DNA of 64,000 nucleotides from Mariluticola halotolerans (GTDB lineage: Bacteria > Pseudomonadota > Alphaproteobacteria > Rhizobiales > Devosiaceae): positions 1,116,001-1,180,000 of the forward strand of contig NZ_CP090960.1 in the NCBI RefSeq assembly GCF_021611515.1, read 5' to 3'. The position numbers and the translations under genes are program-made. Positions 4,535 through 42,171 of this stretch are shown in pieces. A model generated the notes under the pieces. That model saw nothing but the letters and a program-made list of their open reading frames with translations. It was not told the DNA's origin and did no database searches. Each line of letters starts with the position of its first letter. Positions within the stretch are counted from its first letter, which is position 1.

Positions 4535-4682
4535 GCCATGGAATCCCGGATTTTCGGCGTTTATTGCCTGAATATACAAGCAAAATCTGTTTGGAATTTC
4601 ACTGCCCTATTAACTTTTCCTCAAAGACTGTCGGTCATATTTCGGCATCGCCTCAGGAAGAGGTGTTTTTATATTTGGACCC

Positions 4683-4696
4683 AGAATAGGAATTCT
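4683..4696 (+). promoter_or_regulatory. Flagellin ribosome binding site in a hairpin loop
   Basis: AGAAT-AGGA-ATTCT: a perfect 5-bp stem whose tetraloop is the Shine-Dalgarno AGGA, ending 3 nt before the flagellin ATG. FlbT and FlaF, which act post-transcriptionally on flagellin in related bacteria, are encoded just downstream, so this is a natural candidate target region. Confidence 0.45.
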
Positions 4697-4699
4697 AAG

Positions 4700-6637
4700 A
4701 TGGCCGATATTACCCTTTCGAAAGCAGTGCGTTCAAACCTGCTTAATCTTCAGAGCACAGCTGATCTGCTCGGTACCACGCAGGAGCGTTTGGCGACCGG
4801 TAAAAAAGTCAACTCGGCTCTCGACAATCCGACCAACTTTTTCACCGCTTCATCCCTGAACAGCCGCGCCAGCGACATGGGCTCTTTGCTCGATTCGATG
4901 GCCAATGGTATCCAGACGCTTGAAGCTGCTGATAACGGCCTGACCGCTATCACGAAGAACCTTGAATCCATGCAGTCCACGCTGACCCAGGCACGTCAGG
5001 ACAAGTCGTTCCAGACCAAGTCCTTCATGCTTGATGCTGCTGCAAGCGGCAATCTTTCGTTTAGCGGCGGTGCCGTTGGCGAAACAGCCGTTGATATTGC
5101 ACTGGATGGTGGTGCTGCTGCCAAAGCTGGTTCGCAAACCACAGGCGCATTCGAATCGTTCGCGATTGATGCTGGCGGTGCTGCGGGTACAGCCGGTACG
5201 GCATCGATCACCTATGCCGGTAGCGCGATCGCTTATGGCGCGGCTGATACCTCGACCTTCGCCATTGATGTCGATGGCAATGGTGCCCCCCAGACGATCA
5301 CGATCAATCAGGCTGGCGTTCAGGCCGTTGGTAACGGTGACTCGACGATCGACAGCATTGATGAGCTGCAGGAAATCCTTGAGAATGCCTTCACTGCCGC
5401 TGGCGGTGCTGCTGCCAACCTCACTGTGGCGAATGACGGCACGACGATCACCATCACCTCGGGCACAACCGGCACAGACTCGATCGTTGCCATCAGCGCC
5501 TTTAATGGTGACGCTGACGGTGGCGCGGCGACCAACACGGGTTCTGGTATCGCGAATACCGCTGGTACAGCTGGTACCGATGACACGCGTGACTTGCTGA
5601 CCTTCGACATTGCTGTTGACGGTGGTGCGGCTTCGTCAGTGACTATCGATGCGGCGCTTGTTGCCGGTGTTGGCAATAACGACCAGGTCATCGATGATAT
5701 CGACGAGTACCAGGCCGTCGTTCAGGCAGCTCTCGATGCTGCTGGTGTCACCGGTGTAACGGTCTCGAATGATGGCACAGGCCTGAAATTCACGTCCGAT
5801 ACCAAAGGTGCAACGTCCGCTGTGGCAATCACCAACGTGAACGCAAATGATGGTGCCGCTGGTACCGCGTTTACGGCTGCTGATGCCGGTCTTGATGCCC
5901 TGACAACTGATGCTGGCGGTGCAACAGGTGGCGCACGTACAGTTGACGAACTGGTTGCGGCGATCAACGACAGCGCCAGCCTTGATGGCAAGATCCGTGC
6001 TTCCAACGATAACGGCAAGCTCCGCGTCGAAAACCTTTCGACCCAGACCCTGACTGTTACCGGCTACAATTCCACCAACTCCAAGCTGGACGGTGGCGCT
6101 GGTACAACGGAAATCGGTGGCAACACCCGTCGCGCCGATCTGGCAGCACAGTTCAACGAACTGCGCGATCAGCTCGACAAACTGGCGGATGACGCGTCGT
6201 TCAACGGTGTGAACCTTCTGCGTGGTGACAACCTGCAGCTGACCTTCAACGAAACCGGTACGTCTGAAATCAATATCCAGACCAAAGAAGGCAAGGCAAT
6301 CAACTCTGCCAATCTCGGTGTCAGCACCACGCTGACCGCTGAAGAGCTTGACAGTGATGCGACGATCGACGGCTTCCTGGCTGATATCAAGGGCGCCCTG
6401 GGTTCGGTTCGTTCGCAGTCGTCTTCGTTCGGTTCCAACCTGTCGGTCGTTCAGAACCGTCAGGATTTCACCAAGAACATGATCAACACCCTCGAAACCG
6501 GTGCGTCGAACCTCACTCTCGCCGACACCAACGAGGAAGCAGCCAACCTTCTGGCTCTGCAGACACGTCAGCAGCTGTCCTCGACAGCCCTGTCGCTGGC
6601 TTCGCAGGCCGACCAGAACGTGCTGCGTCTGTTCTAA
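4700..6637 (+). CDS. Flagellin, large, with duplicated hypervariable domain
   Basis: Filament subunit exported by the flagellar secretion system. Of 645 residues, the N-terminal D0/D1 region (MADITLSKAVRSNLLNLQ, then ERLATGKKVNSALDNPTNFFTA) and the C-terminal D1/D0 region (ENF-type helix, ending LALQTRQQLSSTALSLASQADQ) are classical. Between them lies a long Ala/Gly/Asp/Thr-rich surface region with two similar units of about 115 residues each (about 184-299 and 300-415), each opening TF-I-VDG. Start ATG 4700 has AGGA at good spacing; an in-frame ATG at 4538 lies inside the upstream terminator and is rejected. A strong terminator follows. No sigma-54 consensus was found upstream. Confidence 0.95.
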   Translation: MADITLSKAVRSNLLNLQSTADLLGTTQERLATGKKVNSALDNPTNFFTASSLNSRASDMGSLLDSMANGIQTLEAADNGLTAITKNLESMQSTLTQARQDKSFQTKSFMLDAAASGNLSFSGGAVGETAVDIALDGGAAAKAGSQTTGAFESFAIDAGGAAGTAGTASITYAGSAIAYGAADTSTFAIDVDGNGAPQTITINQAGVQAVGNGDSTIDSIDELQEILENAFTAAGGAAANLTVANDGTTITITSGTTGTDSIVAISAFNGDADGGAATNTGSGIANTAGTAGTDDTRDLLTFDIAVDGGAASSVTIDAALVAGVGNNDQVIDDIDEYQAVVQAALDAAGVTGVTVSNDGTGLKFTSDTKGATSAVAITNVNANDGAAGTAFTAADAGLDALTTDAGGATGGARTVDELVAAINDSASLDGKIRASNDNGKLRVENLSTQTLTVTGYNSTNSKLDGGAGTTEIGGNTRRADLAAQFNELRDQLDKLADDASFNGVNLLRGDNLQLTFNETGTSEINIQTKEGKAINSANLGVSTTLTAEELDSDATIDGFLADIKGALGSVRSQSSSFGSNLSVVQNRQDFTKNMINTLETGASNLTLADTNEEAANLLALQTRQQLSSTALSLASQADQNVLRLF

Positions 6638-7792: not shown

Positions 7793-9643
7793 CTAGATGT
7801 AATTTACCAGACTGAGTTTGGAGATAATCGATGTGGTCTGGTAACTCGCCTCAAGACGGGTCTGCAGATTGAGCAGCTGCATGGCCACTTCTTCAATCGG
7901 CGCCTGTTCGATATCGGCCAGCATATTGTCGAGTTGCCCCGAATGCGTTGTGTGCCGGGCCTTGGCCTGACCGATCGTGCTTTCGGCAATGCCAAGATCG
8001 AGGCTGATCACAGCGATCGAGCCGGGCTGGTTGTTATTGCCTTCGGACAATTGCTTGACCTGGCGGCTGCGCATGGCCTCGTAGCGTTCCGGCGCGGCTT
8101 CATCACCTGCCGGATAGCTCTCGACTGACATCACCGCGAGCGAGCGCACCAGATTGACAATGCCGGTCTCATTCGCCTGAACGCCATAGCTGACCACGGT
8201 GCCATCATCGACGCTGGTCTGCACGGTCTGGCGCGCATTGCCGGCGCTGTCCTCGCCGCTATACCAGATCACTGTATCCGCGTCGGTTGCCGCAATCTGG
8301 GCGGTTGCCGTTTCGAAGGGCGGCCCATCAATCCGCATTGCGGTTCCGCCCTGGCCGGGGAAGAAATCATTGGCGGCGGCATAGACGGAGGCGGCTTCCA
8401 GTTCGGTCTTGCCGAAGCGTTCCAGCTCAGTATTCAGCGCCGCTTCAAAATTGGCGGCGGTTTCTTCCGGTGTCGCCCCGATCTGGAACTGACGATCAGC
8501 TGCGGGTGCGTTGGTTTTGGCCTCAAAGGTCAAGGTACGTTCCGAGCCATCGGGCAAGGTGACGCCGATCTTGACCACTTCACCTTCCACAGGCAGGCCG
8601 GTAAAGCGCATGCTCAGTGATGCGGGCGGGCCGCCGGCAGGTGGTGTGGCAACAATGGCATCGCTATCGGTCGACAGGGTGCTGAGCTTGAGACCAAACG
8701 GATGTGCGCCATCTTCGGCCAGGGTGACCGAGTTGGCGACCATGTTGCCATCAAGTGCGGCGCGGAAATTATCGGCCGTTGCGTCGGGCGTGCCGCCGAT
8801 CTGGAATTCATTGGGGTTTGCGGGCACACCGGCGACAGCGGTGAAGACACGTGGTTCAACGGTGCCGTCGGGCTGGGTGACGTCAATGGTCACCGTGTCG
8901 CCATCGGCCACGCCTGCGCCAAACTGCACAGTGACTTCGACAGGCGCGCCTGCGGGGCCCACGATGGTGATCTCGGCGGCGTTGCTGGTGGCGGCGCCCG
9001 TAATCTGCTGACGGTTGGGGCTGAGCAGTGCATCCTCTTCCGTCAGGCTGACGGTATCGACGGCCGGCGCACCGGACGTGAGGCCGGCACGCGCTGTGAC
9101 AACGCGGCCATGACCGTCAAGGCCCGCATCGGCCAGCTTGCGCTCGCTGGTGACCGTACGGAAGCCATCGCGACCGCCCACACCGTCCAGCAGCGCACTT
9201 GCCTGTTCAACAGGCGGGCTATCCGTATTGGTGCCGCCAAACAGGAAACGCCCATTCAAATCGGTGCGCAGAATGGTCATGACTTCGTCAAGCCGCGCAT
9301 TGGCCAGGGACTGGGCGGTGACGATACCGGTACCGCCCTCGCCCGAACCGCCGGTCATTGCGGTTGAACGCGCATCGGCTTCGATTTCATCGAGGCGCGA
9401 GACGACATTGTTGAGAAAGTCGAGACGCAGGTCCACGGTCTGGATATTGGACTGATAGGCCTCCAGCTTGCCCTGACGGGCGCGGATGGTCATATCGTAG
9501 ATGCGCTCAGAGCCCAGTTCGGACAGGCGTGAATAGCGCTCGCCGGTGGCCAGCTGCTGCTGGAGGTTATCCATGCGGCTCTGCATGTTGGCAATGGTGG
9601 CAAAGCCGCGGCTGACGGGAAAGAGTGCTTTCGAAACGTTCAT
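7793..9643 (-). CDS. flgL: Flagellar hook-associated protein 3 FlgL
   Basis: FlgL is the second hook-filament junction protein. The N-terminus (MNVSKALFPVSRGFATIANM, then LQQQLATGERYSRLSELGSE) and the C-terminus (VAMQLLNLQTRLEASYQTTSIISKLSLVNYI) are flagellin-like coiled-coil ends. At 616 residues it is about twice the enterobacterial length. The excess is a surface insertion containing two related units (about 225-330 and 338-440), each with a VTVQF/LSMRF strand, a ...VxIxVTxPDG.. segment and a FQIG-TP--TA-NF-AAL block. It starts 10 nt after flgK stops, with AGGAG at ideal spacing. Confidence 0.93.
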   Translation of the reverse strand: MNVSKALFPVSRGFATIANMQSRMDNLQQQLATGERYSRLSELGSERIYDMTIRARQGKLEAYQSNIQTVDLRLDFLNNVVSRLDEIEADARSTAMTGGSGEGGTGIVTAQSLANARLDEVMTILRTDLNGRFLFGGTNTDSPPVEQASALLDGVGGRDGFRTVTSERKLADAGLDGHGRVVTARAGLTSGAPAVDTVSLTEEDALLSPNRQQITGAATSNAAEITIVGPAGAPVEVTVQFGAGVADGDTVTIDVTQPDGTVEPRVFTAVAGVPANPNEFQIGGTPDATADNFRAALDGNMVANSVTLAEDGAHPFGLKLSTLSTDSDAIVATPPAGGPPASLSMRFTGLPVEGEVVKIGVTLPDGSERTLTFEAKTNAPAADRQFQIGATPEETAANFEAALNTELERFGKTELEAASVYAAANDFFPGQGGTAMRIDGPPFETATAQIAATDADTVIWYSGEDSAGNARQTVQTSVDDGTVVSYGVQANETGIVNLVRSLAVMSVESYPAGDEAAPERYEAMRSRQVKQLSEGNNNQPGSIAVISLDLGIAESTIGQAKARHTTHSGQLDNMLADIEQAPIEEVAMQLLNLQTRLEASYQTTSIISKLSLVNYI

Positions 9644-15665: not shown

Positions 15666-17123
15666 ATGGCGCAGCCCCCAGCCAATATTGTTGATGAGGT
15701 CGGCATTGCGCTCGGCAATCTGGGTGATGCCGCCACCGGCATGTTCACCCCGACGCTGCGCCTCGGCGTTACCGGGCTTTCACGCGCCGGCAAGACGATT
15801 TTCATCACTGCGCTGATCCACAATCTTTTGACCAATAGCCGCATGCCCGGTTTCGGCCCGCTGGCGGATGGGCGGTTGATCGGGGCGCAATTGACGGAAC
15901 ATCCCGACCGGGGCATGCCGCGCTTTGCCTATGAACAGCATCTGGCGGCATTGACCGGGAAAGAACCGCACTGGCCTGAAAGCACAAGGCGGATTTCGCA
16001 AATCCGGGTGACGCTGAAATTTCAAAGCGGCAACTGGCTGACCGGCATGCTAGGGACAAGCCAGCTCAATCTCGATATTGTCGATTATCCGGGCGAATGG
16101 CTGCTCGATCTGCCGCTCCTCTCGCTGAGTTTTGCTGAATGGTCGGAACAGGCGCTGGCCCGTGCCCGCAGGGCTGGTTCGGCGGAGGATGCCAAGCCGT
16201 TTCTTGAGGCGCTGGCTTCAATCGACAGTGCCAAACCGGCGCTCGACACGGATGCGGAGCTGCTGGCGAGCACCTTTACCCAATATCTGCGCGCCAGCCG
16301 CCATGATGGGCGCGCCCTTTCCACCCTGCCGCCGGGGCGGTTTTTGCTGCCCGGCGATATGGAGGGGTCGCCCGCCCTCACCTTTGCGCCGCTGCCGACG
16401 CCGGATCAGGCGCAAAAGCACAATAGTCTCTATGCCATGCTGGAACGGCGCTATGAGGCCTATAAGAGCCTTCTGGTGCGGCCTTTCTTTCGGGACCACT
16501 TTGCCCGGCTGGACCGGCAAATCGTCTTGGTGGACGCTCTGAGGGCCCTGAATGCCGGCCCTGAGGCCGTGGCTGACCTCGAAACGGCGCTGACCGACGT
16601 GCTGGCATGTTTCCGGGCCGGGTCGCCCAATCCGTTTATCCAGCTCATTGCAAGACGGATCGACCGGATCCTGTTTGCCGCGACCAAGGCCGATCATTTG
16701 CATCACGCCTCCCATGACCGGCTGGAAGCGGTGCTGAACCGGCTGGTAGCCAATGCGGCGCGGCGGGCGAAATTTGTCGGCGCTGAAACACGCTCGCTGG
16801 CGCTGGCCTCGATCCGGGCCACGTCCGAGGATGTGATCGAAGAGAATGGCGAAAAGCTTGATGTCATTGTCGGCACGCCGGAAAAGGGTGAACGGCTGGG
16901 TGATGAAGTTTACGATGGCAAAACGGAAATTGCCCTTTTCCCCGGCGACTTGCCGGAAAAGGCCGAAACAGTGCTGCAGCCAGACGGCGAACCGGTTGAC
17001 CTGAACTTCATGCGCTTCATGCCGCCGCAAAAGCTGGCCAGAACTGAACATGGCGACCCCATTCTGCCCTATATCCGGCTCGACCGCGCCCTCGATTTTC
17101 TGCTTGGAGACTGGCTGAAATGA
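15666..17123 (+). CDS. ycjX: YcjX family GTP-binding protein (DUF463)
   Basis: A 485-residue protein of the YcjX family, predicted P-loop NTPases with a Ras-like fold linked by expression studies in other bacteria to envelope or phage-shock stress. Walker A is GLSRAGKT (37-44). Further family blocks are LNLDIVDYPGEWLLDLPLL (DxxG-like switch II) and RILFAATKADHLHH, whose TKAD replaces NKxD. It ends ILPYIRLDRALDFLLGDWLK, as is usual. The stop overlaps the next start by four bases (ATGA), so it is translationally coupled to ycjF. Biochemical role unknown. Confidence 0.9.
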   Translation: MAQPPANIVDEVGIALGNLGDAATGMFTPTLRLGVTGLSRAGKTIFITALIHNLLTNSRMPGFGPLADGRLIGAQLTEHPDRGMPRFAYEQHLAALTGKEPHWPESTRRISQIRVTLKFQSGNWLTGMLGTSQLNLDIVDYPGEWLLDLPLLSLSFAEWSEQALARARRAGSAEDAKPFLEALASIDSAKPALDTDAELLASTFTQYLRASRHDGRALSTLPPGRFLLPGDMEGSPALTFAPLPTPDQAQKHNSLYAMLERRYEAYKSLLVRPFFRDHFARLDRQIVLVDALRALNAGPEAVADLETALTDVLACFRAGSPNPFIQLIARRIDRILFAATKADHLHHASHDRLEAVLNRLVANAARRAKFVGAETRSLALASIRATSEDVIEENGEKLDVIVGTPEKGERLGDEVYDGKTEIALFPGDLPEKAETVLQPDGEPVDLNFMRFMPPQKLARTEHGDPILPYIRLDRALDFLLGDWLK

Positions 17124-18136
17124 AAAAGCCCATGGCCCGCCCGACCCAGGCAAAAACATCGACCAGCGAGACCGTGCGCACGCCGCGCGTTTTCACGCCC
17201 AAGCCGAACACGGAAATCATCGAGACCTTCAGCGAAGAAGATGCGGTTGATTTGACCCCGACGCCGCAGCGCAAGCGGGGCCGCTGGTTGCGACGGATCC
17301 TGTTCACCACGGCCGGTATTCTGGTGTCGCTGGGGCTGGGGCTCGCGGCCGAACAGCTGATCCGCGATCTGTTTGCCCGCTATGAATGGCTGGGTTGGGC
17401 CGGCATGGTCGCGCTGGTGCTGTTTGTTCTGGCAGTGATCGCCCTGATTGTGCGCGAGATCACCGCCTTGTTGCGCTTGCGCAGCCTCAACGCCATGCGG
17501 GCGGAAGCTGCGGCGGTATTGATCAGTGACAAGGGTGATGATGGGCGCAAACTGATCGGCGAACTTGAAATGCTTTATGCGACGCGAGCTGATCTGGCGC
17601 GGCCACGGGCGGCGCTGGATGCTGATGCAAAGGCGCTGCTGGACGGAAGCGATATGGTGCACATGGCCGAACGGGCATTGATGGGGCCGCTTGACGCCCG
17701 CGCCAAAGCCCTCACCGCAGCCTCTGCCCGGCGCGTTGCCATTGTCACGGCGATTTCACCGCGTGCTCTCGTCGATATTGCCTTTGTCGGCTATGAGAGC
17801 TTCAAGCTGGCGCGCGGCATTGCCGAACTTTATGGGGCGCGGCCGGGCCTGTTTGGTGCCTGGCGGCTGGCGGGGGCCATTCTGGGCCATCTGGCGGTGA
17901 CCGGTGGGGTGGCGCTGGGTGACAGCGTGGTGCAGCAGCTGGTGGGGCATGGACTTGCGGCCAAGGTATCTGCCCGGCTGGGCGAAGGACTGGTCAACGG
18001 GTTGATGACCGTCCGGGTTGGTATCGCGGCGATGCGCGTGACCCGCCCCCTGCCCTTTTCGGCGCTCAAGCAACCGGTTGTGATGGATTTTATGACCGAT
18101 CTGGCAAATATCGCCAGCAAGGGCGGCAAGACCTAG
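17120..18136 (+). CDS. ycjF: YcjF family membrane protein (TIGR01620/DUF697)
   Basis: A 338-residue inner-membrane partner of YcjX. A charged N-terminal region (1-58) precedes two transmembrane helices (about 61-83 and 90-112), a cytoplasmic helical stretch, and the C-terminal DUF697-type hydrophobic domain (ARRVAIVTAISPRALVDIAFVGYESFKLARGIAELYG). The ycjX-ycjF pairing is widely conserved. It ends convergently with the LysE gene; the two stop codons share two bases and there is no room for a terminator. Confidence 0.85.
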   Translation: MKKPMARPTQAKTSTSETVRTPRVFTPKPNTEIIETFSEEDAVDLTPTPQRKRGRWLRRILFTTAGILVSLGLGLAAEQLIRDLFARYEWLGWAGMVALVLFVLAVIALIVREITALLRLRSLNAMRAEAAAVLISDKGDDGRKLIGELEMLYATRADLARPRAALDADAKALLDGSDMVHMAERALMGPLDARAKALTAASARRVAIVTAISPRALVDIAFVGYESFKLARGIAELYGARPGLFGAWRLAGAILGHLAVTGGVALGDSVVQQLVGHGLAAKVSARLGEGLVNGLMTVRVGIAAMRVTRPLPFSALKQPVVMDFMTDLANIASKGGKT

Positions 18137-27320: not shown

Positions 27321-27659
<339 letters not shown>

Positions 27660-27789: not shown

Positions 27790-28191
27790 TCAGTCTTGCA
27801 GCAGTTCGGCGATGAACAGGTGCACTTCCTCAACGGCAAAGCCGATATCGGCCACCGTCTCGTCGGCGACTGCACCGGTATCGCGAAATTCAGCTTCAGC
27901 GGCCACGGCCAGCCCGGCGATGCCATTGGCACCAACACCGGCGGAAGCGCCCTTTAGCGAATGCAAAGCCAGCTTGATTTCATCAGGTGACTGGGCGTTG
28001 CGAAGACGCAGCAAATAGGTTTTTGCACCCTGATCAAAAATTCTGAGCACCTCATGCTCAAGGCCCCGATCCCCCAGCGTTTGCCGGGCCAGATGCACCA
28101 GATCGATTACCCGTTGCCCCGCCGGGCGCTCGATCTGCCCCTCGTGTGAAGGTGCTGAAGCTGTCCGTGCCACTCTCGTTCCCCTACTCAT
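27790..28191 (-). CDS. Hpt domain phosphotransfer protein
   Basis: A 133-residue protein whose C-terminal 100 residues form a histidine phosphotransfer domain: LALHSLKGASAGVGANGIAGLAVAAEAEFRD, with phosphorylatable His77 and the following KG. It would relay phosphate between a hybrid histidine kinase and a response regulator; no such partner is encoded in the window. It is not ChpT-like. It is divergent from the GPR-like giant gene, and the 323-bp space between them contains a perfect CtrA-type box. Confidence 0.85.
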   Translation of the reverse strand: MSRGTRVARTASAPSHEGQIERPAGQRVIDLVHLARQTLGDRGLEHEVLRIFDQGAKTYLLRLRNAQSPDEIKLALHSLKGASAGVGANGIAGLAVAAEAEFRDTGAVADETVADIGFAVEEVHLFIAELLQD

Positions 28192-28306
28192 TTACAAAGG
28201 ACCACTGGTCCTGTGGATAATTCTACGACCAGTTGGGTGAACACGGTCTTAAGCTTGCCAGGGGGTGATTTATCCCCTTCAATCAGCATTAACCGCCTTG
28301 CCAAAT

Positions 28307-28321
28307 TAACGGGTTTTTAAT
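28307..28321. promoter_or_regulatory. CtrA-type box between the Hpt and GPR-like genes
   Basis: Exact TTAA-N7-TTAA (TTAA 28307-28310, spacer CGGGTTT, TTAA 28318-28321), with additional TTAA at 28290-28293 and 28328-28331. The rest of 28192-28514 shows no ORF and no strong hairpin. The box lies 194 bp before the giant gene and 116 bp before the Hpt gene, so it could serve either. Confidence 0.55.
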
Positions 28322-28514: not shown

Positions 28515-31500
28515 ATGGCGAATAAATCAGAATCCTCCGCTAATGATCCGGCTGCATTGGCATTCTCTGCGGTTGAAAATGCCTTGAGAGATTCAGTTTT
28601 CAGCATTGATGAGCCCGAGCGGGCACCCGGCAAAAGCAAGGCGCCACGCGCCGCTGCCCCTGCGGAACGCTCTCGCGCTGCAGAAAAAATCGCCAATCAG
28701 GCCAGCGCTCCGGCGAATGATGACCGGTTCCCCTCTTCCAAACTCATGCAGTCCATGCAGTCGCGCGCCTCGACCGCGCCGATCTGGATTGCACTGCTCG
28801 TCTCGGCGATCTGGGTTGCCGCTATCGGCTATATCGGCGCCTTGCGCTTTGGCGACCAGCTGGCACGGCCCAATCAGTGGGGCGTATTCGTTACCACCGC
28901 AGACTTTGCCGGCATGCTGGCCATTGCCGCCCTGCCCGTTCTCGGCTTTTTTGCCGTGGCGGTTCTTGCGCGCCGTGCGCAGGACCTGCGCATTGCCGCC
29001 GCTTCCATGACCCAGGCCGCTATCCGGCTGGCCGAGCCGGAAACCACAGCCGCCGACAAGGTTGCCTCGGTTGGCCAGGCCGTGCGCCGTGAAGTGAACG
29101 CGCTGGGCGACGGGCTGGAACGCGCGCTGTCGCGCGCCGGTGAGCTTGAAGTGATGGTGCACAATGAGGTGACCTCGCTGGAGCGCACCTATTCCGACAA
29201 TGAAATCCGCTTGCGCAGCCTTATTCAGGAACTTGCCGCACAGCGCGAATCCGTCATCACCAATTCCGACCGTGTGCGTGAGGCGATCATTGAAGCGCAT
29301 ACGCTGATGGTTGAGGATATCGACAAGGCCGGTGCAAAACTGTCCGGCACGATTGTCGACCGTGGCGAGGAAGTGCGGAACACCGTCAATTCCGCGACAG
29401 AAACCCTCAACATGGCCTTTGACAGCCGTTCCGAGAAATTTGTGTCGCTTGTGGACAACCGCACCACCGACCTGTTGAGCGCCATGGACACGAGCGCCGA
29501 ACGGCTCAACACCACATTCGACGACCGCGCGACAATGGTTGAAGACGCCTTTGACAAGCGCACCGGCGCTTTGGCCAATGTGCTTGAAGAGCGGATCAAC
29601 CTTTTGACCGAGGAACTGGACAGCCGTGCCATCTCCATGGCCCAGTCGATCGACCAGAAGACCTCGACCCTGGCCAATTCGCTGAAAGAAGGCGGCTCGA
29701 TCATCATTGGCGAGCTGGAAAGCCGTGGCTATGCCATGAACGGCGCGCTGGAAGCGGTTGGCTCGCGCATTGTCAACGATATCGGCAGCCGTGCGGATTC
29801 TGCGGAAACCGCTTTGAGCAGCATTGCCGATCGTCTCGACGAGAACATGTCGATCAAGCTCAACGCGCTCGACAGCCGCCTGCAGACGACGCTGCTGGAA
29901 ATCGGCGGCGCGATGGACGAGACCACCGAGAAGGCCAGCGCCACGCTGACCCAGGCTGGCGTGCAGACCCTGCAGCAGCTTGGTGCCCGTATCGAGGAAG
30001 TTTCACTGGTCATCGATTCCCGCCTGCAGGAAGTCGACGGTGTTGTGGGCGACAAGGGCGAACGCATTATCGAAGCGCTCAACAATCACACCAGCCGTTT
30101 CTCCTCGAGCGCCAATGTGCTTGAGAACGCGCTGGACGAGAAAACCGCCAAGCTGGAAACCACCCTTACCGACAAGACCGAACGTTTGGGCACGGTGCTG
30201 GGCGAGCAGACCGAGCGGATGGGCAATCTGCTGGACCAGAATGCTGAAGCGCTGGAAAACCGGCTGGTTGCACGCACCGAGGGCATGGAAGCAGCCTTCA
30301 CCGCCAGCACCGGCAAGCTGGAAGAGGTCATCAAGACCCAGTCCACCGAAATCAATGGCGAGATTGCCGCGCGGACAAAAGAATTCGCCGAAAAGCTGGG
30401 CACACGCAGCCAGCAGCTTTCCGAGGCGATGAGCACCCGCACCCGCGAATTCGGCGATGTGCTGAGCGATCGCACGCAGAAGCTTTCGGATGTTCTGGAA
30501 ACCCGGACCAACGAATTTGGCACAACCCTGTCGAGCCGTACCGAAAGCATGGCTGAAGCGCTGGCCAGCGAAACCCAGAAAATGGCGGCACAGATCGAGC
30601 AGAGCTCGGGCGCGCTCAGCGAAAATATCAGCAGCCATACCCAGGATATCGCCCAGATCATTGATGCCCAGGGCCAGACGGTTCAGTCCCGTGTCGACGA
30701 CGCCATGCGCTCGGTTACCGAGACCATGGACAGCCGCGCCAGCCACGTGTCGGCCATCATCACCTCGAAGATTGCCGAGGTGAACGAGAGCATCGGCAAC
30801 GAGGTCGACAGTGCCGTCAACCGCCTGTCGGACGCAGAATCCGGCGTGACCGCCCGGATCGATTCCGCTGCCGGCAATATTGCCGAGAGCGCAGAACAGG
30901 CTGCCGGCCTGATCGAGACCGGTGTCGACAAGGCCCGTCAGTCGATCAAGGATATGGTCGACGAGCGTCTGGGCACCCTGCCCGAGGCCATCACGGCACG
31001 CGCCGACATTACGGCAGATCGTCTGTCTGCCCTCAACGAGAGCATTCACTCGACATTGCAGCAGTCAATGTCCGAACTGGAGGCCAGTGCCGACCAGATC
31101 GAGGAAACCATTGGATCACGCATTGCCAGCGCATCGCTGACCATTTCCACCGATGTGGAACAGACAGCAGCGCGCATGGATGTGGCCGTGCGCTCCGCCC
31201 TTGGCCAGATTCGCGAAGCGTCCAAGCATATCGAAGACCTGGTGGAAGTGCGGGCGCTGGAGACTGCCAACAAGCTCGGCGAAAAGGTCGAGGACATGAA
31301 CCGGACGCTCAGCGAGCACACGGACAACTTCTCCTCGCTGATCACAACACGGTCCAGCGAGCTGGAAAACGCCCTGCGCAGCCATGGCAATATCCTGCGC
31401 GAAGCCTTGACCGAGAATGCCCGCGAATCCGAAGAGATCATGGCGGCTTCCTCGTCGCGCATCCTCACGGACGTCAATGGTGCCCTCAAAAACCTCAACG

Positions 31501-33008
31501 AAGGCAACCTGCTGCTGCAGCGGGTGCTGGAAACATCAACCAGCAATCTGGCCACGCTGGAAAGCTCGGTTTCGGGCCACACCACGGCCTATGCCGAAAC
31601 CGTTCGCGATGCCGTCGCCTCGACCGAACAGGCCGGCCAGCTGGTTTCGCGCCATGTCGGCGCCTTGCAGACGACCATCGAGAGCATGGTCAGCGAGTTC
31701 GGCAGCATTCTGGGCAATCTCGACACCGAGACAGCCAATATCAACAATGCGGCCGACGCTTTGACCAATGCGGGCAATTTCACCATCGACACGCTGGAAA
31801 ACCGGCGCGATGCCATGGAAGCCTTGGTGCAGAGCTTTACCGGACGTGCCGACGAAGTGGACGAGCGCATGCGCTCCTTCGCCCAGTCGATCTCGGATAC
31901 GGTCAACGAAACCGAACGTCGCCTGATCGTGGCGCGCCGGGCCATGGAAGAGGCGCTCAATTCGACCGCCGACACCGTCACCGGGCGGCTTGACGATATC
32001 ACCCACACCGCCAGCGCACAGGGCCAGCGGGCGGGGGAAGAGGTTCGTCAGATCCAGCAGGCATTGCTGGCTGAAATGCAGAGCGCATTTGAAGCGGCGA
32101 CCTCACGCTTCACCGAAACCGCTGAAGCCATGCGCCTCACTGCCGGTCAGGTTGGGCATGAACTGGAAGCGACCCGCTCCGAACTGCAGCGCGGTGTGAT
32201 GGAACTGCCCGAGGAAACCCGGGCCAGCGCCGCCGCCATGCGCCGCGTGGTTGCCGAACAGATCGAGGCGCTCAACGAGCTCAATTCCATCGTTCGTTCG
32301 CAGCCGGGCACACATGATGTGAGCAGCCGCCGCCGTCCGCAGCAACAGCAAGCTGCACAGCCGCAGCGTTCCCAGCCGCGTTATGAGCAGCCGCAGGCAG
32401 AGCCTGTGCGCCACGAAGAACCGCAGCAGCGGGCGCCCGAACCCCGGCAGGAGCAGGCACGCCGTCCGGCCCCTGCCCGGCAGGTTGCCCCTGAAGTTGA
32501 GGACCGTTCAACTGCCGTTGCCGCGCTGATGCGCCCGCAACAGGCTGAACCGGCCCAGCAGCAGCGGGCCCCCGGCACGATGCGTGACGAGGCACCGAAT
32601 GGCAGCTGGTTGCGTGACGTCCTGCGCAATGCCTCGGCCAAGCAACAGGCGGGTGCGTCCACCCAGCGCAGCTTCAGCCTCAGCAATCTGACGGAAGAAG
32701 TTGCCCGGGCCATGGACGAGAATTCGCTTCTGGAAGCCTGGCAGCGCTATCGTTCCGGCGAGTCCAATGTGTTCTCACGCCGCATCTACACGCTGACCGG
32801 CCAGGGCACCTATGACGAAGTGCGCAAGAAACTGCAGCGCGATGCCGATTTTGCTGAGACCGCTGCGGCCTATATGGATGAGTTCGAGCAGTTGCTGACC
32901 AATGCCGCGGCGGACCCGCGGGCAGCGGTGACGGTACAGGATCACCTGACATCGGATCGCGGCAAGGTTTACACCATGCTCGCCCATGCCAGCGGCCGGT
33001 TGAACTAG
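28515..33008 (+). CDS. Giant coiled-coil membrane protein, probable growth-pole-ring protein (GPR/RgsE-like)
   Basis: A 1497-residue protein. Residues 1-85 are cytoplasmic and charged; two transmembrane helices follow (about 88-109 and 129-151), giving an inner-membrane hairpin. About 1100 residues of near-continuous amphipathic, apolipoprotein/kinesin-like repeats come next (units such as ...ERLNTTFDDRATMVEDAFDKRTGAL..), then a Q/P-rich linker (about 1265-1370) and a compact C-terminal domain (about 1390-1497, EEVARAMDENSLLEAWQRYRSGE). This order, and annotation of relatives as apolipoprotein A1/A4/E-like, fit GPR of Agrobacterium and RgsE of Sinorhizobium, which form a ring at the growing pole. 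The identification is inference; only two cysteine-free features, the TM pair and repeats, are directly visible. Confidence 0.75.
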   Translation: MANKSESSANDPAALAFSAVENALRDSVFSIDEPERAPGKSKAPRAAAPAERSRAAEKIANQASAPANDDRFPSSKLMQSMQSRASTAPIWIALLVSAIWVAAIGYIGALRFGDQLARPNQWGVFVTTADFAGMLAIAALPVLGFFAVAVLARRAQDLRIAAASMTQAAIRLAEPETTAADKVASVGQAVRREVNALGDGLERALSRAGELEVMVHNEVTSLERTYSDNEIRLRSLIQELAAQRESVITNSDRVREAIIEAHTLMVEDIDKAGAKLSGTIVDRGEEVRNTVNSATETLNMAFDSRSEKFVSLVDNRTTDLLSAMDTSAERLNTTFDDRATMVEDAFDKRTGALANVLEERINLLTEELDSRAISMAQSIDQKTSTLANSLKEGGSIIIGELESRGYAMNGALEAVGSRIVNDIGSRADSAETALSSIADRLDENMSIKLNALDSRLQTTLLEIGGAMDETTEKASATLTQAGVQTLQQLGARIEEVSLVIDSRLQEVDGVVGDKGERIIEALNNHTSRFSSSANVLENALDEKTAKLETTLTDKTERLGTVLGEQTERMGNLLDQNAEALENRLVARTEGMEAAFTASTGKLEEVIKTQSTEINGEIAARTKEFAEKLGTRSQQLSEAMSTRTREFGDVLSDRTQKLSDVLETRTNEFGTTLSSRTESMAEALASETQKMAAQIEQSSGALSENISSHTQDIAQIIDAQGQTVQSRVDDAMRSVTETMDSRASHVSAIITSKIAEVNESIGNEVDSAVNRLSDAESGVTARIDSAAGNIAESAEQAAGLIETGVDKARQSIKDMVDERLGTLPEAITARADITADRLSALNESIHSTLQQSMSELEASADQIEETIGSRIASASLTISTDVEQTAARMDVAVRSALGQIREASKHIEDLVEVRALETANKLGEKVEDMNRTLSEHTDNFSSLITTRSSELENALRSHGNILREALTENARESEEIMAASSSRILTDVNGALKNLNEGNLLLQRVLETSTSNLATLESSVSGHTTAYAETVRDAVASTEQAGQLVSRHVGALQTTIESMVSEFGSILGNLDTETANINNAADALTNAGNFTIDTLENRRDAMEALVQSFTGRADEVDERMRSFAQSISDTVNETERRLIVARRAMEEALNSTADTVTGRLDDITHTASAQGQRAGEEVRQIQQALLAEMQSAFEAATSRFTETAEAMRLTAGQVGHELEATRSELQRGVMELPEETRASAAAMRRVVAEQIEALNELNSIVRSQPGTHDVSSRRRPQQQQAAQPQRSQPRYEQPQAEPVRHEEPQQRAPEPRQEQARRPAPARQVAPEVEDRSTAVAALMRPQQAEPAQQQRAPGTMRDEAPNGSWLRDVLRNASAKQQAGASTQRSFSLSNLTEEVARAMDENSLLEAWQRYRSGESNVFSRRIYTLTGQGTYDEVRKKLQRDADFAETAAAYMDEFEQLLTNAAADPRAAVTVQDHLTSDRGKVYTMLAHASGRLN

Positions 33009-38258: not shown

Positions 38259-39371
38259 CTATCCGCCAAGCTGTTGTTTTAGCTCTATAATCCGGTCGTA
38301 ACTCTCGACAATGCGTGCCTTGAAAGCGGCATCCCGTCCGGCCTCTTCGATCAAGATATTCCGCACCTCTTCAGCCAGTCCGATTCGATATTGAACAGTA
38401 TTGGAGAAAAGCAGGATATCTGTACCCGCTTTTACGGCCCGCACAATCGCTGCGCGAAAGCCGAAATGTTCGCGGATGGCCGACATTTCCAGATCATCGC
38501 TGATGACCACGCCGTCAAAACCGAGCTGGTTGCGCAAGACGCCGGTGATCCATGTGCGGGAAAGACTGGCGGGCGGCTGCGCCTCGGTATCGACAGCGAA
38601 TTTCTGGTGAAACAGGTGCCCCACCATGACCATGTCGGCAAGGCCGTTCCTGATCAGGGTCCGATAGGGTTCGAGTTCATCGGCCTGCCAGCTTTTGGTG
38701 ATATCGACGAAACCCGCATGGCTATCCTGACGCGATGAGCCGTGGCCGGGGAAATGTTTGAGGACGGTGAGCATCCGTTCGCGATGATGGGCTGCAACAA
38801 ACGCGCCCGCATAGGCTGCCACGCGCGTCGCATCGCGCCCATAGGCGCGGCCATAGCGCGCAATGATGGGGTTGTCCGGATTGACGTTGAGATCAACGAC
38901 GGGGCCGAAGTTCAGATTGAAACCCAGCGCTGAAAGCCCCTCGGCCATCGTCTGGTAGACCTCACCTGCGCCCTTGGGAGATTGTGCAGCGGCTATCCTG
39001 GCGGCCGAGGGAATTTCAGTAAAGCCAACATCGCCGGTCAGCCGCTCGATGCTGCCGCCTTCCTGATCAAGCGCGATAAAGGGTGGCAAATCCGGGGAAG
39101 CTGCGGTGAAAGCGGCGTTCATCGCCGTGACGGCGGCAAGGCTTTGCACATTGAACTTGAGATACATGACGCCGCCGACGCCGCCATTGGCGATGATATC
39201 GGTCAGCGCCCTCACAGAGGCGTCCGAGGCTGAATTGCCGCTAAAGCCAACCATGATCATCTGGCCGGCCATTTGTTCCAGCGTCGCCGCTTTCAGCGGC
39301 AGCACACTCAAGGCCAGCAATGCGGGAACCAGCCAGAAGCTAGCGCGCGACAACCGTTTTGGCGTTCGCAT
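38259..39371 (-). CDS. Secreted glycoside hydrolase family 3 protein (NagZ-like)
   Basis: A 370-residue GH3 enzyme, probably a beta-N-acetylhexosaminidase. Residues 1-28 form a Sec signal peptide (SFWLVPALLALSVLPLKA), unusual because NagZ itself is cytoplasmic. The catalytic loop KHFPGHGSSRQDSHAG (about 205-220) carries the conserved Asp/His acid-base pair, and the nucleophile lies in ISDDLEMSA (Asp292/293). Substrate binding is suggested by LDQEGGSIERL. ATG 39371 is chosen for the signal peptide; it overlaps the end of the upstream EAL gene by 32 nt. It may act on peptidoglycan fragments in the periplasm. Confidence 0.85.
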   Translation of the reverse strand: MRTPKRLSRASFWLVPALLALSVLPLKAATLEQMAGQMIMVGFSGNSASDASVRALTDIIANGGVGGVMYLKFNVQSLAAVTAMNAAFTAASPDLPPFIALDQEGGSIERLTGDVGFTEIPSAARIAAAQSPKGAGEVYQTMAEGLSALGFNLNFGPVVDLNVNPDNPIIARYGRAYGRDATRVAAYAGAFVAAHHRERMLTVLKHFPGHGSSRQDSHAGFVDITKSWQADELEPYRTLIRNGLADMVMVGHLFHQKFAVDTEAQPPASLSRTWITGVLRNQLGFDGVVISDDLEMSAIREHFGFRAAIVRAVKAGTDILLFSNTVQYRIGLAEEVRNILIEEAGRDAAFKARIVESYDRIIELKQQLGG

Positions 39372-42171
39372 CACGGTGCTGCATGCGCGCGACAATGTCG
39401 CTACCAGCCATTGGCTTGCCGAAATAATACCCCTGCCCGATATGACATCCCGCCAATTTGAGCATCCATGCCTGATCTGCATCCTCAATCCCCTCTGCAA
39501 CCACTTTCTTGCCAAGAGACTCGGACAAAGTCATGACCGCACGCACGATTGCTGCCGCGTGCTGATCTTCAGGCAAGCCACGGACGAAAGCCTGATCGAT
39601 CTTGATCTTGTCGATCGGCAATTGTCCCAGATAGCTGAGCGACGAAAAGCCGGTCCCGAAATCGTCCAGTGCGACGCCGACGCCCAAAGCCTTGATTTCT
39701 TCGAGCTTGCGGGTAACCCGTTCCGGATTGGCAATGAACAGGCCTTCGGTGATTTCCACATCGAGCTGGGCCGGTGACAGGCCGGACAGCTCGAGCGCGT
39801 TCTTTATATCCTCGACGACGTCCCCGAACTCGAACTGCATGGGCGAGACATTGACCGCCAGCTTGACCTGCCGGGGCCATGAGGCGGCTTCCTTGCAGGC
39901 GGCGATCAGCACCCAACGTCCCAGATCAAGGATCAAGCCTGTTTCCTCGGCCACGGGAATAAACTTGGCCGGCGAGACCAGACCAAGTGTGGGGTGGTTC
40001 CAGCGCACCAGCGCCTCAACACCGACCATTGACTGGTCTTCGAGCAGCACCTGCGGCTGATAGAGAACGAAAAACTGGTCCTCGGCAATCGCTTGACGCA
40101 GCGCGCTTTCCATTTCGCGCAGTTCATTGAGCCGCGCATCCATCTCCCGGCTATAAACAGCATAACCATTGACCGGCGAGGCCTTGGCGGCCGACAGCGC
40201 CATATCGGCGTGGGAAATCAACATATCGGGATCATAGCCGGAATCGTCGGTGGTGGTGACGCCGATCTGGGCCCCGATCATCGCCTTGCGGTCTCCGAGG
40301 CGATAATCAGCCGACACAGAATGCAGAACCTGGTTACAGAACCTATCCAGTTCAGGGCCATCGAGAATGCCGGCGCGGGCGGCGGCAAAGCTGTCGCCGC
40401 CAAGCCGGGCCACACAGTCCACATCGCAGCCCTTGAAGCGCTCCACCACCTGGCGCAGCAATTCGTCACCGCTGGCATGCCCCATTGTGTCGTTGATGAT
40501 CTTGAAGCGCGACAGGTCCAGCATGATCACCGTCATGCCGACCAATTGCCCATCCTCGGATTGCATGGCGCTGTTGATCAGTTCGGAGAATTTCGTGCGT
40601 GAGAGCGCACCGGTCAGCGGGTCATGCGCTGCCAGGTAAGTCAGCCGCGTCTCGGTTGCGCGCCGGTCGGTGATATCGCGGAACGTGAGGCAGGCGACGG
40701 CATTGCCCTGCTCCTGCGCGTCCCGGCCCTGCTCCGCGTCCACGCGCGACAGGGTGATGACATATTCGACAACTCTTTTTGCGCCCGTGCGGTCGACAAT
40801 TGTGGCTTCATGCGGCTCGGGTGCCTGAACGACATCGTCCTGCAATTGCAGGGCGACCTTGACCTCGGTGGCGAGTACCGGCGGCAGAATTTTCGTCATA
40901 TCTGCCCCGATGGTGGTTTGCCCATCGGTCAGACCGAGTATTTCATCGGCGAACCGGCTTGCCGTCAGCACGGTGCCATCGCCAGCAATCACCAATACAC
41001 CGTCGAAATTATCGGCAATCACCCGATTGAGAATACGCTGGGTCACATCGCGCTCGCGGCGGGTTTTGCCCAGCAGAAAACGGCGCAGGTTGAGCTCGCG
41101 GGAAAGACCGGCCAAAGCGAGGGCCGCAAAGACAATATGGCCGGCTGTTGTGTCGATGGTGATGGCAGAACCCGCCTGCAGGATGACCGCAATCAGTTCG
41201 GACCCCACCCCCAGCAACGCCACCACACCAACGGCCGCCGCCAGACCGAATTTCCACCGGCAGAGCAGGAAGCCGATCGCGATAAACAGGGCAAGCGTTG
41301 CCCCATTAAGGGCGCTGCCACTGATCAGGGCACGGTTTTGTTTTAGCGTTTCCGCCGCGAGGACCTGGAGCATGGCACCGGGCAAAATGCCGTAGCGCGG
41401 GACCGTGAAATTATCGCGCAGTTCGAGCGCGCTGGCACCGACAACCACCTGTTTGCCAGCTATCGCTGCAGCGGGAACACGCTCTTCAAGAATATCGACA
41501 ACCGAGATCACGTTGACCGTTTCCGGATCGATGCCGAAATCGATTGCGAATTCCCCGTCTGCGGCGGGGGTATCGCTCAACATCCCGGCCAGCGAGGGAT
41601 AAAGCGTGTCGCCGACCCGAATACCATAGGGATAGCGGCGGAGCACGCCATCGGCACTGGTGCGCACATTGACCGCAACGACACCCGCTTCGGCGGCGAA
41701 GCGGGGCAAAGGCTCGGTAAATTCAAGTTCGTCTGATCTGGCTGATTTTTGCTGCGCAAACCCTGCAAGGCTGACAAAGCCGCCCGCATTGACCAGGGCT
41801 GCTTCCATCAGCGCATCATCGCGCTCGTTCGAGGCGGCACTGAAATCGACATCGAAAACAATATCCGAGACATCTAGATCAAGGAGTTTATCGATCAGCT
41901 CGGCATGCACGTGGCGTGGCCACGGCCACACACCAACGGACGCCAGACTTTTCGGATCGATCGCCACGAATACAATATTGCCGGTTGCCGGGCGTGTCGC
42001 CACGCCGAAGCGAAAGCTTTTCAGCGCGTTGTCCAAAGGTTCAAACGCGCCGGATATGCTGCAAAGAAGAACCAGCAGCACGATAAACAGATCGAGAAAT
42101 TGGCGTTTGATATTTTGCAAGCGTCTATCCGAAACGAGCGGCCCAGGAACCCGATCAATAGCAATCACCAT
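39340..42171 (-). CDS. CHASE2-PAS-GGDEF(degenerate)-EAL cyclic-di-GMP protein
   Basis: A 943-residue sensor. An N-terminal TM helix (about 25-42) leads into a periplasmic CHASE2 domain (about 45-285; DPKSLASVGVWPWPRHVHAELI), three C-terminal TM helices (about 285-360), a PAS-like region (about 375-500), GGDEF and EAL domains. The GGDEF signature is altered to GGDSF (591-595), so diguanylate cyclase activity is probably lost. The EAL domain keeps EALVRW (719-721 EAL), DDFGTGFSSLSYL and EGIED, so it is likely an active cyclic-di-GMP phosphodiesterase. CHASE2 proteins often pair with a FecR-domain protein; one is encoded just upstream. Confidence 0.92.
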   Translation of the reverse strand: MVIAIDRVPGPLVSDRRLQNIKRQFLDLFIVLLVLLCSISGAFEPLDNALKSFRFGVATRPATGNIVFVAIDPKSLASVGVWPWPRHVHAELIDKLLDLDVSDIVFDVDFSAASNERDDALMEAALVNAGGFVSLAGFAQQKSARSDELEFTEPLPRFAAEAGVVAVNVRTSADGVLRRYPYGIRVGDTLYPSLAGMLSDTPAADGEFAIDFGIDPETVNVISVVDILEERVPAAAIAGKQVVVGASALELRDNFTVPRYGILPGAMLQVLAAETLKQNRALISGSALNGATLALFIAIGFLLCRWKFGLAAAVGVVALLGVGSELIAVILQAGSAITIDTTAGHIVFAALALAGLSRELNLRRFLLGKTRRERDVTQRILNRVIADNFDGVLVIAGDGTVLTASRFADEILGLTDGQTTIGADMTKILPPVLATEVKVALQLQDDVVQAPEPHEATIVDRTGAKRVVEYVITLSRVDAEQGRDAQEQGNAVACLTFRDITDRRATETRLTYLAAHDPLTGALSRTKFSELINSAMQSEDGQLVGMTVIMLDLSRFKIINDTMGHASGDELLRQVVERFKGCDVDCVARLGGDSFAAARAGILDGPELDRFCNQVLHSVSADYRLGDRKAMIGAQIGVTTTDDSGYDPDMLISHADMALSAAKASPVNGYAVYSREMDARLNELREMESALRQAIAEDQFFVLYQPQVLLEDQSMVGVEALVRWNHPTLGLVSPAKFIPVAEETGLILDLGRWVLIAACKEAASWPRQVKLAVNVSPMQFEFGDVVEDIKNALELSGLSPAQLDVEITEGLFIANPERVTRKLEEIKALGVGVALDDFGTGFSSLSYLGQLPIDKIKIDQAFVRGLPEDQHAAAIVRAVMTLSESLGKKVVAEGIEDADQAWMLKLAGCHIGQGYYFGKPMAGSDIVARMQHRDANAKTVVAR

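Follow-up and report, generated by a model that had tools for sequence, protein, structure and literature searches.

Within the 64-kb window, which is the whole stretch of DNA that was analysed, a forward-strand open reading frame (ORF) runs from an ATG to a stop codon and encodes a protein of 1497 amino acids. It is related to the polar growth proteins GPR of Agrobacterium tumefaciens and RgsE of Sinorhizobium meliloti, and we refer to it here as GPR. The gene, its parts and its neighbors are as follows.

15666–18136, forward strand: YcjX-YcjF pair, upstream of GPR (PF04317, TIGR01620, synteny scan).
27321–27641, reverse strand: 2Fe-2S ferredoxin-type protein, Fer2 (PF00111), placed as in S. 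meliloti.
27790–28191, reverse strand: Hpt-domain protein of 133 aa, divergent from GPR (PF01627, E 2.1e-7, above the cut-off).
28306–28320, forward strand: perfect CtrA-type full site, TTAACGGGTTTTTAA, in the common Hpt/GPR intergenic region.
28515–33008, forward strand: GPR/RgsE orthologue, whole gene, 1497 aa (ORF; the one ORF of the genome matched by RgsE, E 2.7e-85).
28767–28979, forward strand: transmembrane (TM) hairpin of two predicted segments, residues ~85–113 and ~124–155 (hydropathy, RgsE alignment, helices of the N-terminal model).
28980–29300, forward strand: juxtamembrane helical block, residues 156–262 (per-block conservation, alignment A3).
29301–32114, forward strand: apolipoprotein A1/A4/E-like helical repeats, residues 263–1200 (PF01442, E 6.9e-42).
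32115–32339, forward strand: conserved helical block with an LPEE motif before the linker, residues 1201–1275 (conservation 0.73 over 1201–1250).
32340–32630, forward strand: Q/P-rich linker ending in WLRDVLRNAS (sequence).
32631–33005, forward strand: family-defining C-terminal domain of six predicted helices, residues 1373–1497 (alignments A1 and A2, model).

The layout that the earlier note had read from the letters (1497 residues, two N-terminal TM helices, apolipoprotein-like repeats, a Q/P linker and a compact C-terminal domain) was recovered in full, with the repeats covering ~940 residues rather than more than 1000. Two segments were detected in the hydropathy scan and align with the TM pair of RgsE; the N-terminal model (pTM 0.40) was used for helices alone. 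The juxtamembrane block is the best-conserved part of the protein, with per-block conservation of 0.76–0.83 across residues 151–250. PF01442 matched in seven stretches and scored 143.7 bits (cut-off 90), and in the repeat region conservation dips, the alignments contain gaps and length differs among species. The LPEE block has a counterpart in the RgsE alignment, and the WLRDVLRNAS motif at the end of the linker, which is itself visible in the sequence, is common to near relatives. AlphaFold2 predicted six helices for the C-terminal domain (mean pLDDT 86.5, pTM 0.78); a fold search with this domain gave no match at E ≤ 0.001 in the PDB or BFVD, and a profile search of PDB sequences returned nothing convincing. 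The protein is indeed shorter than its Agrobacterium counterpart, as had been noted, yet it falls inside the family spread of about 900–2900 aa, in which the variation is chiefly in the repeats.

RgsE (SMc00190) of S. meliloti was represented by a 2089-aa gene on CP090106.1, an S. meliloti chromosome filed among plasmids. The neighbors of this gene, with cytochrome bc1 genes downstream, fit the SMc00187–190 region. CP090106.1 (loci L075 and L100 in our set) is titled S. meliloti Ak57 'plasmid pSymB', spans 3.7 Mb and carries chromosomal genes, and is apparently a mislabeled chromosome; RgsE is annotated on it as a kinesin. The published length of RgsE, 2,089 aa, is the same (PMC7327166).

RgsE matched this ORF alone in the whole genome, and no better GPR orthologue was found elsewhere in it. 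Identity to RgsE was 46% over residues 44–258 (E 7e-58) and 49% over the C-terminal domain (E 1e-36); the similarity therefore sits in the TM/juxtamembrane and C-terminal regions, outside the repeats, and extends beyond coiled-coil composition. The whole-protein score was 320 bits, whereas window-shuffled queries reached no more than 41 bits and reversed queries no more than 52, and because these controls score so far below the match, composition was ruled out as its cause. RgsE likewise has two TM segments, PF01442 repeats (7.6e-77, compared with the weaker value given above for GPR), an LPEE block, a P-rich linker and the C-terminal domain, and the gap between its 2089 aa and the 1497 aa here is chiefly in the repeats. 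By profile, the C-terminal domain occurs once in this genome and in 292 of 297 Hyphomicrobiales genomes, almost always as a single copy and mostly in very long ORFs. A further 33 loci in genome_contigs code for relatives, mostly matched over nearly the full length, the closest being from an Alphaproteobacteria MAG, Pelagibacterium, Maritalea and Cucumibacter; with this many relatives, the ORF is not a chance product.

Gene order points the same way. YcjX (15666–17123) and YcjF (17120–18136) lie upstream of GPR, and annotation places the same pair upstream of rgsE on the same strand in S. meliloti, where the order YcjX, YcjF, further genes, Fer2 (reverse), Hpt (reverse) and RgsE (forward) agrees with that of the window. 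In near relatives, the synteny scan found TrxR-CysH-NirA-CysG genes upstream of GPR and, on its downstream side, a block with a metallophosphatase, NagZ and CHASE2-EAL. Elsewhere in the window, two flagellin-domain proteins of unusual size (4538–6637, forward, 699 aa; 7793–9643, reverse, 616 aa) are encoded near FlgI and FlbT. With the sole strong RgsE match, the non-repeat similarity and the common gene order, the assignment to the GPR/RgsE family proposed in the earlier note was confirmed: the protein is the single orthologue in a Hyphomicrobiales bacterium near Pelagibacterium, Maritalea and Cucumibacter. The identification is an ordinary one that adds one member to a known family, and RgsE homologues have previously been reported across all Rhizobiales families.

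The direct comparison was made with RgsE, which is 42% identical to A. tumefaciens GPR (PMC7327166), and the tie to the latter runs through RgsE. A. tumefaciens GPR (Atu1348; 2,115 aa compared with 1497 here) was compared by its published layout, which is alike: two N-terminal TM segments, a helix of ~1,700 aa with PF01442 domains, a P-rich region and an essential C terminus. In RgsE, the LPEE block lies ~264 residues before the C terminus; if the Agrobacterium protein resembles RgsE in this, the block falls between the cuts of the Delta332 and Delta221 deletions, the shorter of which had the worse phenotype (PMC8262873), and its position might explain that difference.

The gene set for rod growth in this genome was also examined. 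The only matches to the MreB model (PF06723) belong to DnaK-, FtsA- and Hsp70-like ORFs, none of which passes 1e-60, and they were rejected as MreB. MreC was looked for in the genome and is absent, and there is one SEDS protein here compared with two in each of four MreB-positive relatives examined, the missing one being RodA. An RgsP orthologue is encoded elsewhere in the genome, with 47% identity over ~860 aa to the S. meliloti RgsP candidate, and is flanked by YqgE and GNAT-like ORFs as in S. meliloti. The S. meliloti candidate has a 7TMR-DISM domain and adjoins a GNAT gene, in agreement with the described rgsP-rimJ arrangement (PMC6107284). The window itself encodes a CHASE2-GGDEF-EAL protein of 943 aa (39340–42171, reverse), which many near relatives also have as a conserved neighbor on the downstream side of GPR; it was rejected as RgsP because it has CHASE2, not 7TMR-DISM, and the orthologue lies elsewhere. 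Since MreB, MreC and RodA are lacking and RgsP is present, unipolar growth is likely in this organism, judging from its gene content. The earlier note had drawn unipolar budding growth from GPR; the growth mode holds as likely on this wider gene set, but GPR alone is insufficient grounds for it, since the protein also occurs together with MreB.

MreB is present in 35 of the 297 Hyphomicrobiales genomes, and all 35 carry the GPR C-terminal domain, with no MreB-positive genome among the five that lack the domain. Four of the domain-less genomes (G058, G113, G173 and G256, one genus in family f19) are without a recognizable GPR C-terminal domain and without true MreB. Six MreB-positive genomes were examined (G001, G009, G021, G026, G033 and G166; loci L102–L105, L107 and L108), and in these the N-terminal block (34–45% identity) and the C-terminal domain are found in ORFs of ~910–1490 aa, with two hydrophobic segments in five and one in the sixth by a simple scan. 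MreC is present in five of the six, and most of the checked MreB-positive Hyphomicrobiales with GPR architecture hold both MreC and two SEDS proteins. This co-occurrence conflicts with the report that Rgs proteins and MreB are mutually exclusive, the filters of which (length ±50%, E-value 1e-40) may have overlooked shorter GPR homologues (PMC7327166). In a class-wide sample of 290 genomes, 120 had the C-terminal domain, and it was found in ~115 genomes of orders other than Hyphomicrobiales; distant RgsE homologues are also on record in Emcibacterales and Rhodospirillales (PMC7327166). Because homologues co-occur with MreB and spread beyond the order, GPR presence alone is no proof of polar growth, and the ancestral role of the family need not be polar growth.

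We consider it highly probable that the protein is a GPR/RgsE orthologue that would be anchored in the inner membrane and would form a ring-like scaffold confining envelope synthesis to the growing new pole. The N-terminal hairpin would probably provide the anchor, the long amphipathic repeat region would probably lie in the cytoplasm, and the repeats together with the C-terminal domain would assemble GPR into the ring, which would do part of the job that MreB does in other rods. The two-TM topology, polar localization and loss-of-function phenotypes of GPR/RgsE are published (PMC8262873, PMC7327166). We counted against this explanation the homologues in MreB-positive genomes, the ~600 residues by which the protein falls short of RgsE and the indirect link to A. 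tumefaciens GPR.

A possible but less favored explanation is that the family is a general alphaproteobacterial polarity landmark resembling TipN, one that would label the new pole and bring in cell-cycle or envelope proteins without being specifically a growth organizer; the MreB-less Hyphomicrobiales would have adopted it for polar growth and made it longer. The ~115 genomes of other orders, the complete coverage of MreB-positive Hyphomicrobiales in our sample and the extension of the Hpt linkage to further families (below) are consistent with this, as are the TM/juxtamembrane block shared by several of the 20 non-Hyphomicrobiales members examined and their commonly shorter ORFs (~700–1200 aa). 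TipN of Caulobacter crescentus, a polar landmark of 882 aa from an organism that, unlike this one, has MreB, has been described as an analogue of GPR (PMC13170164), and GPR is stated to resemble it (PMC8546619). Against this explanation, loss of the protein in the tested MreB-less species gives defective polar growth (PMC8262873, PMC7327166). It is very improbable that the ORF encodes an unrelated protein of long coiled-coil or apolipoprotein-like type, such as a lipid-droplet, SMC-like or ZorA-like one, with a likeness to GPR in composition alone: the ZorA, SpiroCoCo and ApoLp-III models were rejected as its family as weak matches under cut-off, the best of the ZorA/SpiroCoCo matches in the helical region reaching 26.5 of 190 bits, and the resemblance to RgsE at both termini, the shuffle controls and synteny refute it.

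The gene for the proposed ring scaffold has a conserved partner. The Hpt protein in the window retains the phosphoacceptor His (HSLKG), which is present in 28 of 30 aligned Hpt proteins. Of the 33 related loci, 32 have the divergent Hpt gene upstream of GPR, and so do 9 of 11 further Hyphomicrobiales genomes examined, MreB-positive genomes among them. Outside Hyphomicrobiales, strong Hpt matches were found in four families (f46, f51, f134 and f135) and weak versions lacking the His in family f53 and in a Sphingomonas record that carries an Hpt annotation; in most other families examined there was no Hpt beside the GPR-family gene. The divergent pair (window, L002–L034, L075, L102–L109, L126, L127, L131, L148 and L149) thus spans Hyphomicrobiales and some further alphaproteobacterial families.

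The intergenic region shared by the two genes holds TTAACGGGTTTTTAA, the sole TTAAC-N6-TTAA of the whole window, where 0.03 would be expected. Of 31 related intergenic regions, 23 contain TTAA-N7-TTAA (expected 0.76), a count that overstates the significance because the loci are not independent; this motif usually lies ~190–260 bp upstream of the assumed start. It is absent from the S. meliloti, Cohaesibacter and Siculibacillus intergenic regions; S. meliloti has one-mismatch CtrA-type sites upstream of rgsE and no perfect site, in contrast to the window. The motif suggests that the genes beside this putative site may be controlled, and timed, by CtrA. Two papers on GPR/RgsE were searched for Hpt and CtrA, and neither term was found in them.

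The gene linkage is consistent with a working link between the Hpt protein and GPR. We tentatively propose a conserved Hpt-GPR polarity module older than MreB loss, in which a polar kinase and a response regulator might exchange phosphate through Hpt at the GPR scaffold, so that construction of the pole would be coupled to the cell cycle; in the Devosia-type lineage CtrA might fire both genes together. The common Hpt/GPR promoter region and the presence of the GPR family alongside the MreB machinery are new leads. The conserved partner and the CtrA-type site offer a testable link from the cell-cycle phosphorelay to pole construction, and the finding that the GPR family does not depend on MreB having been lost is relevant to the origin of polar growth.
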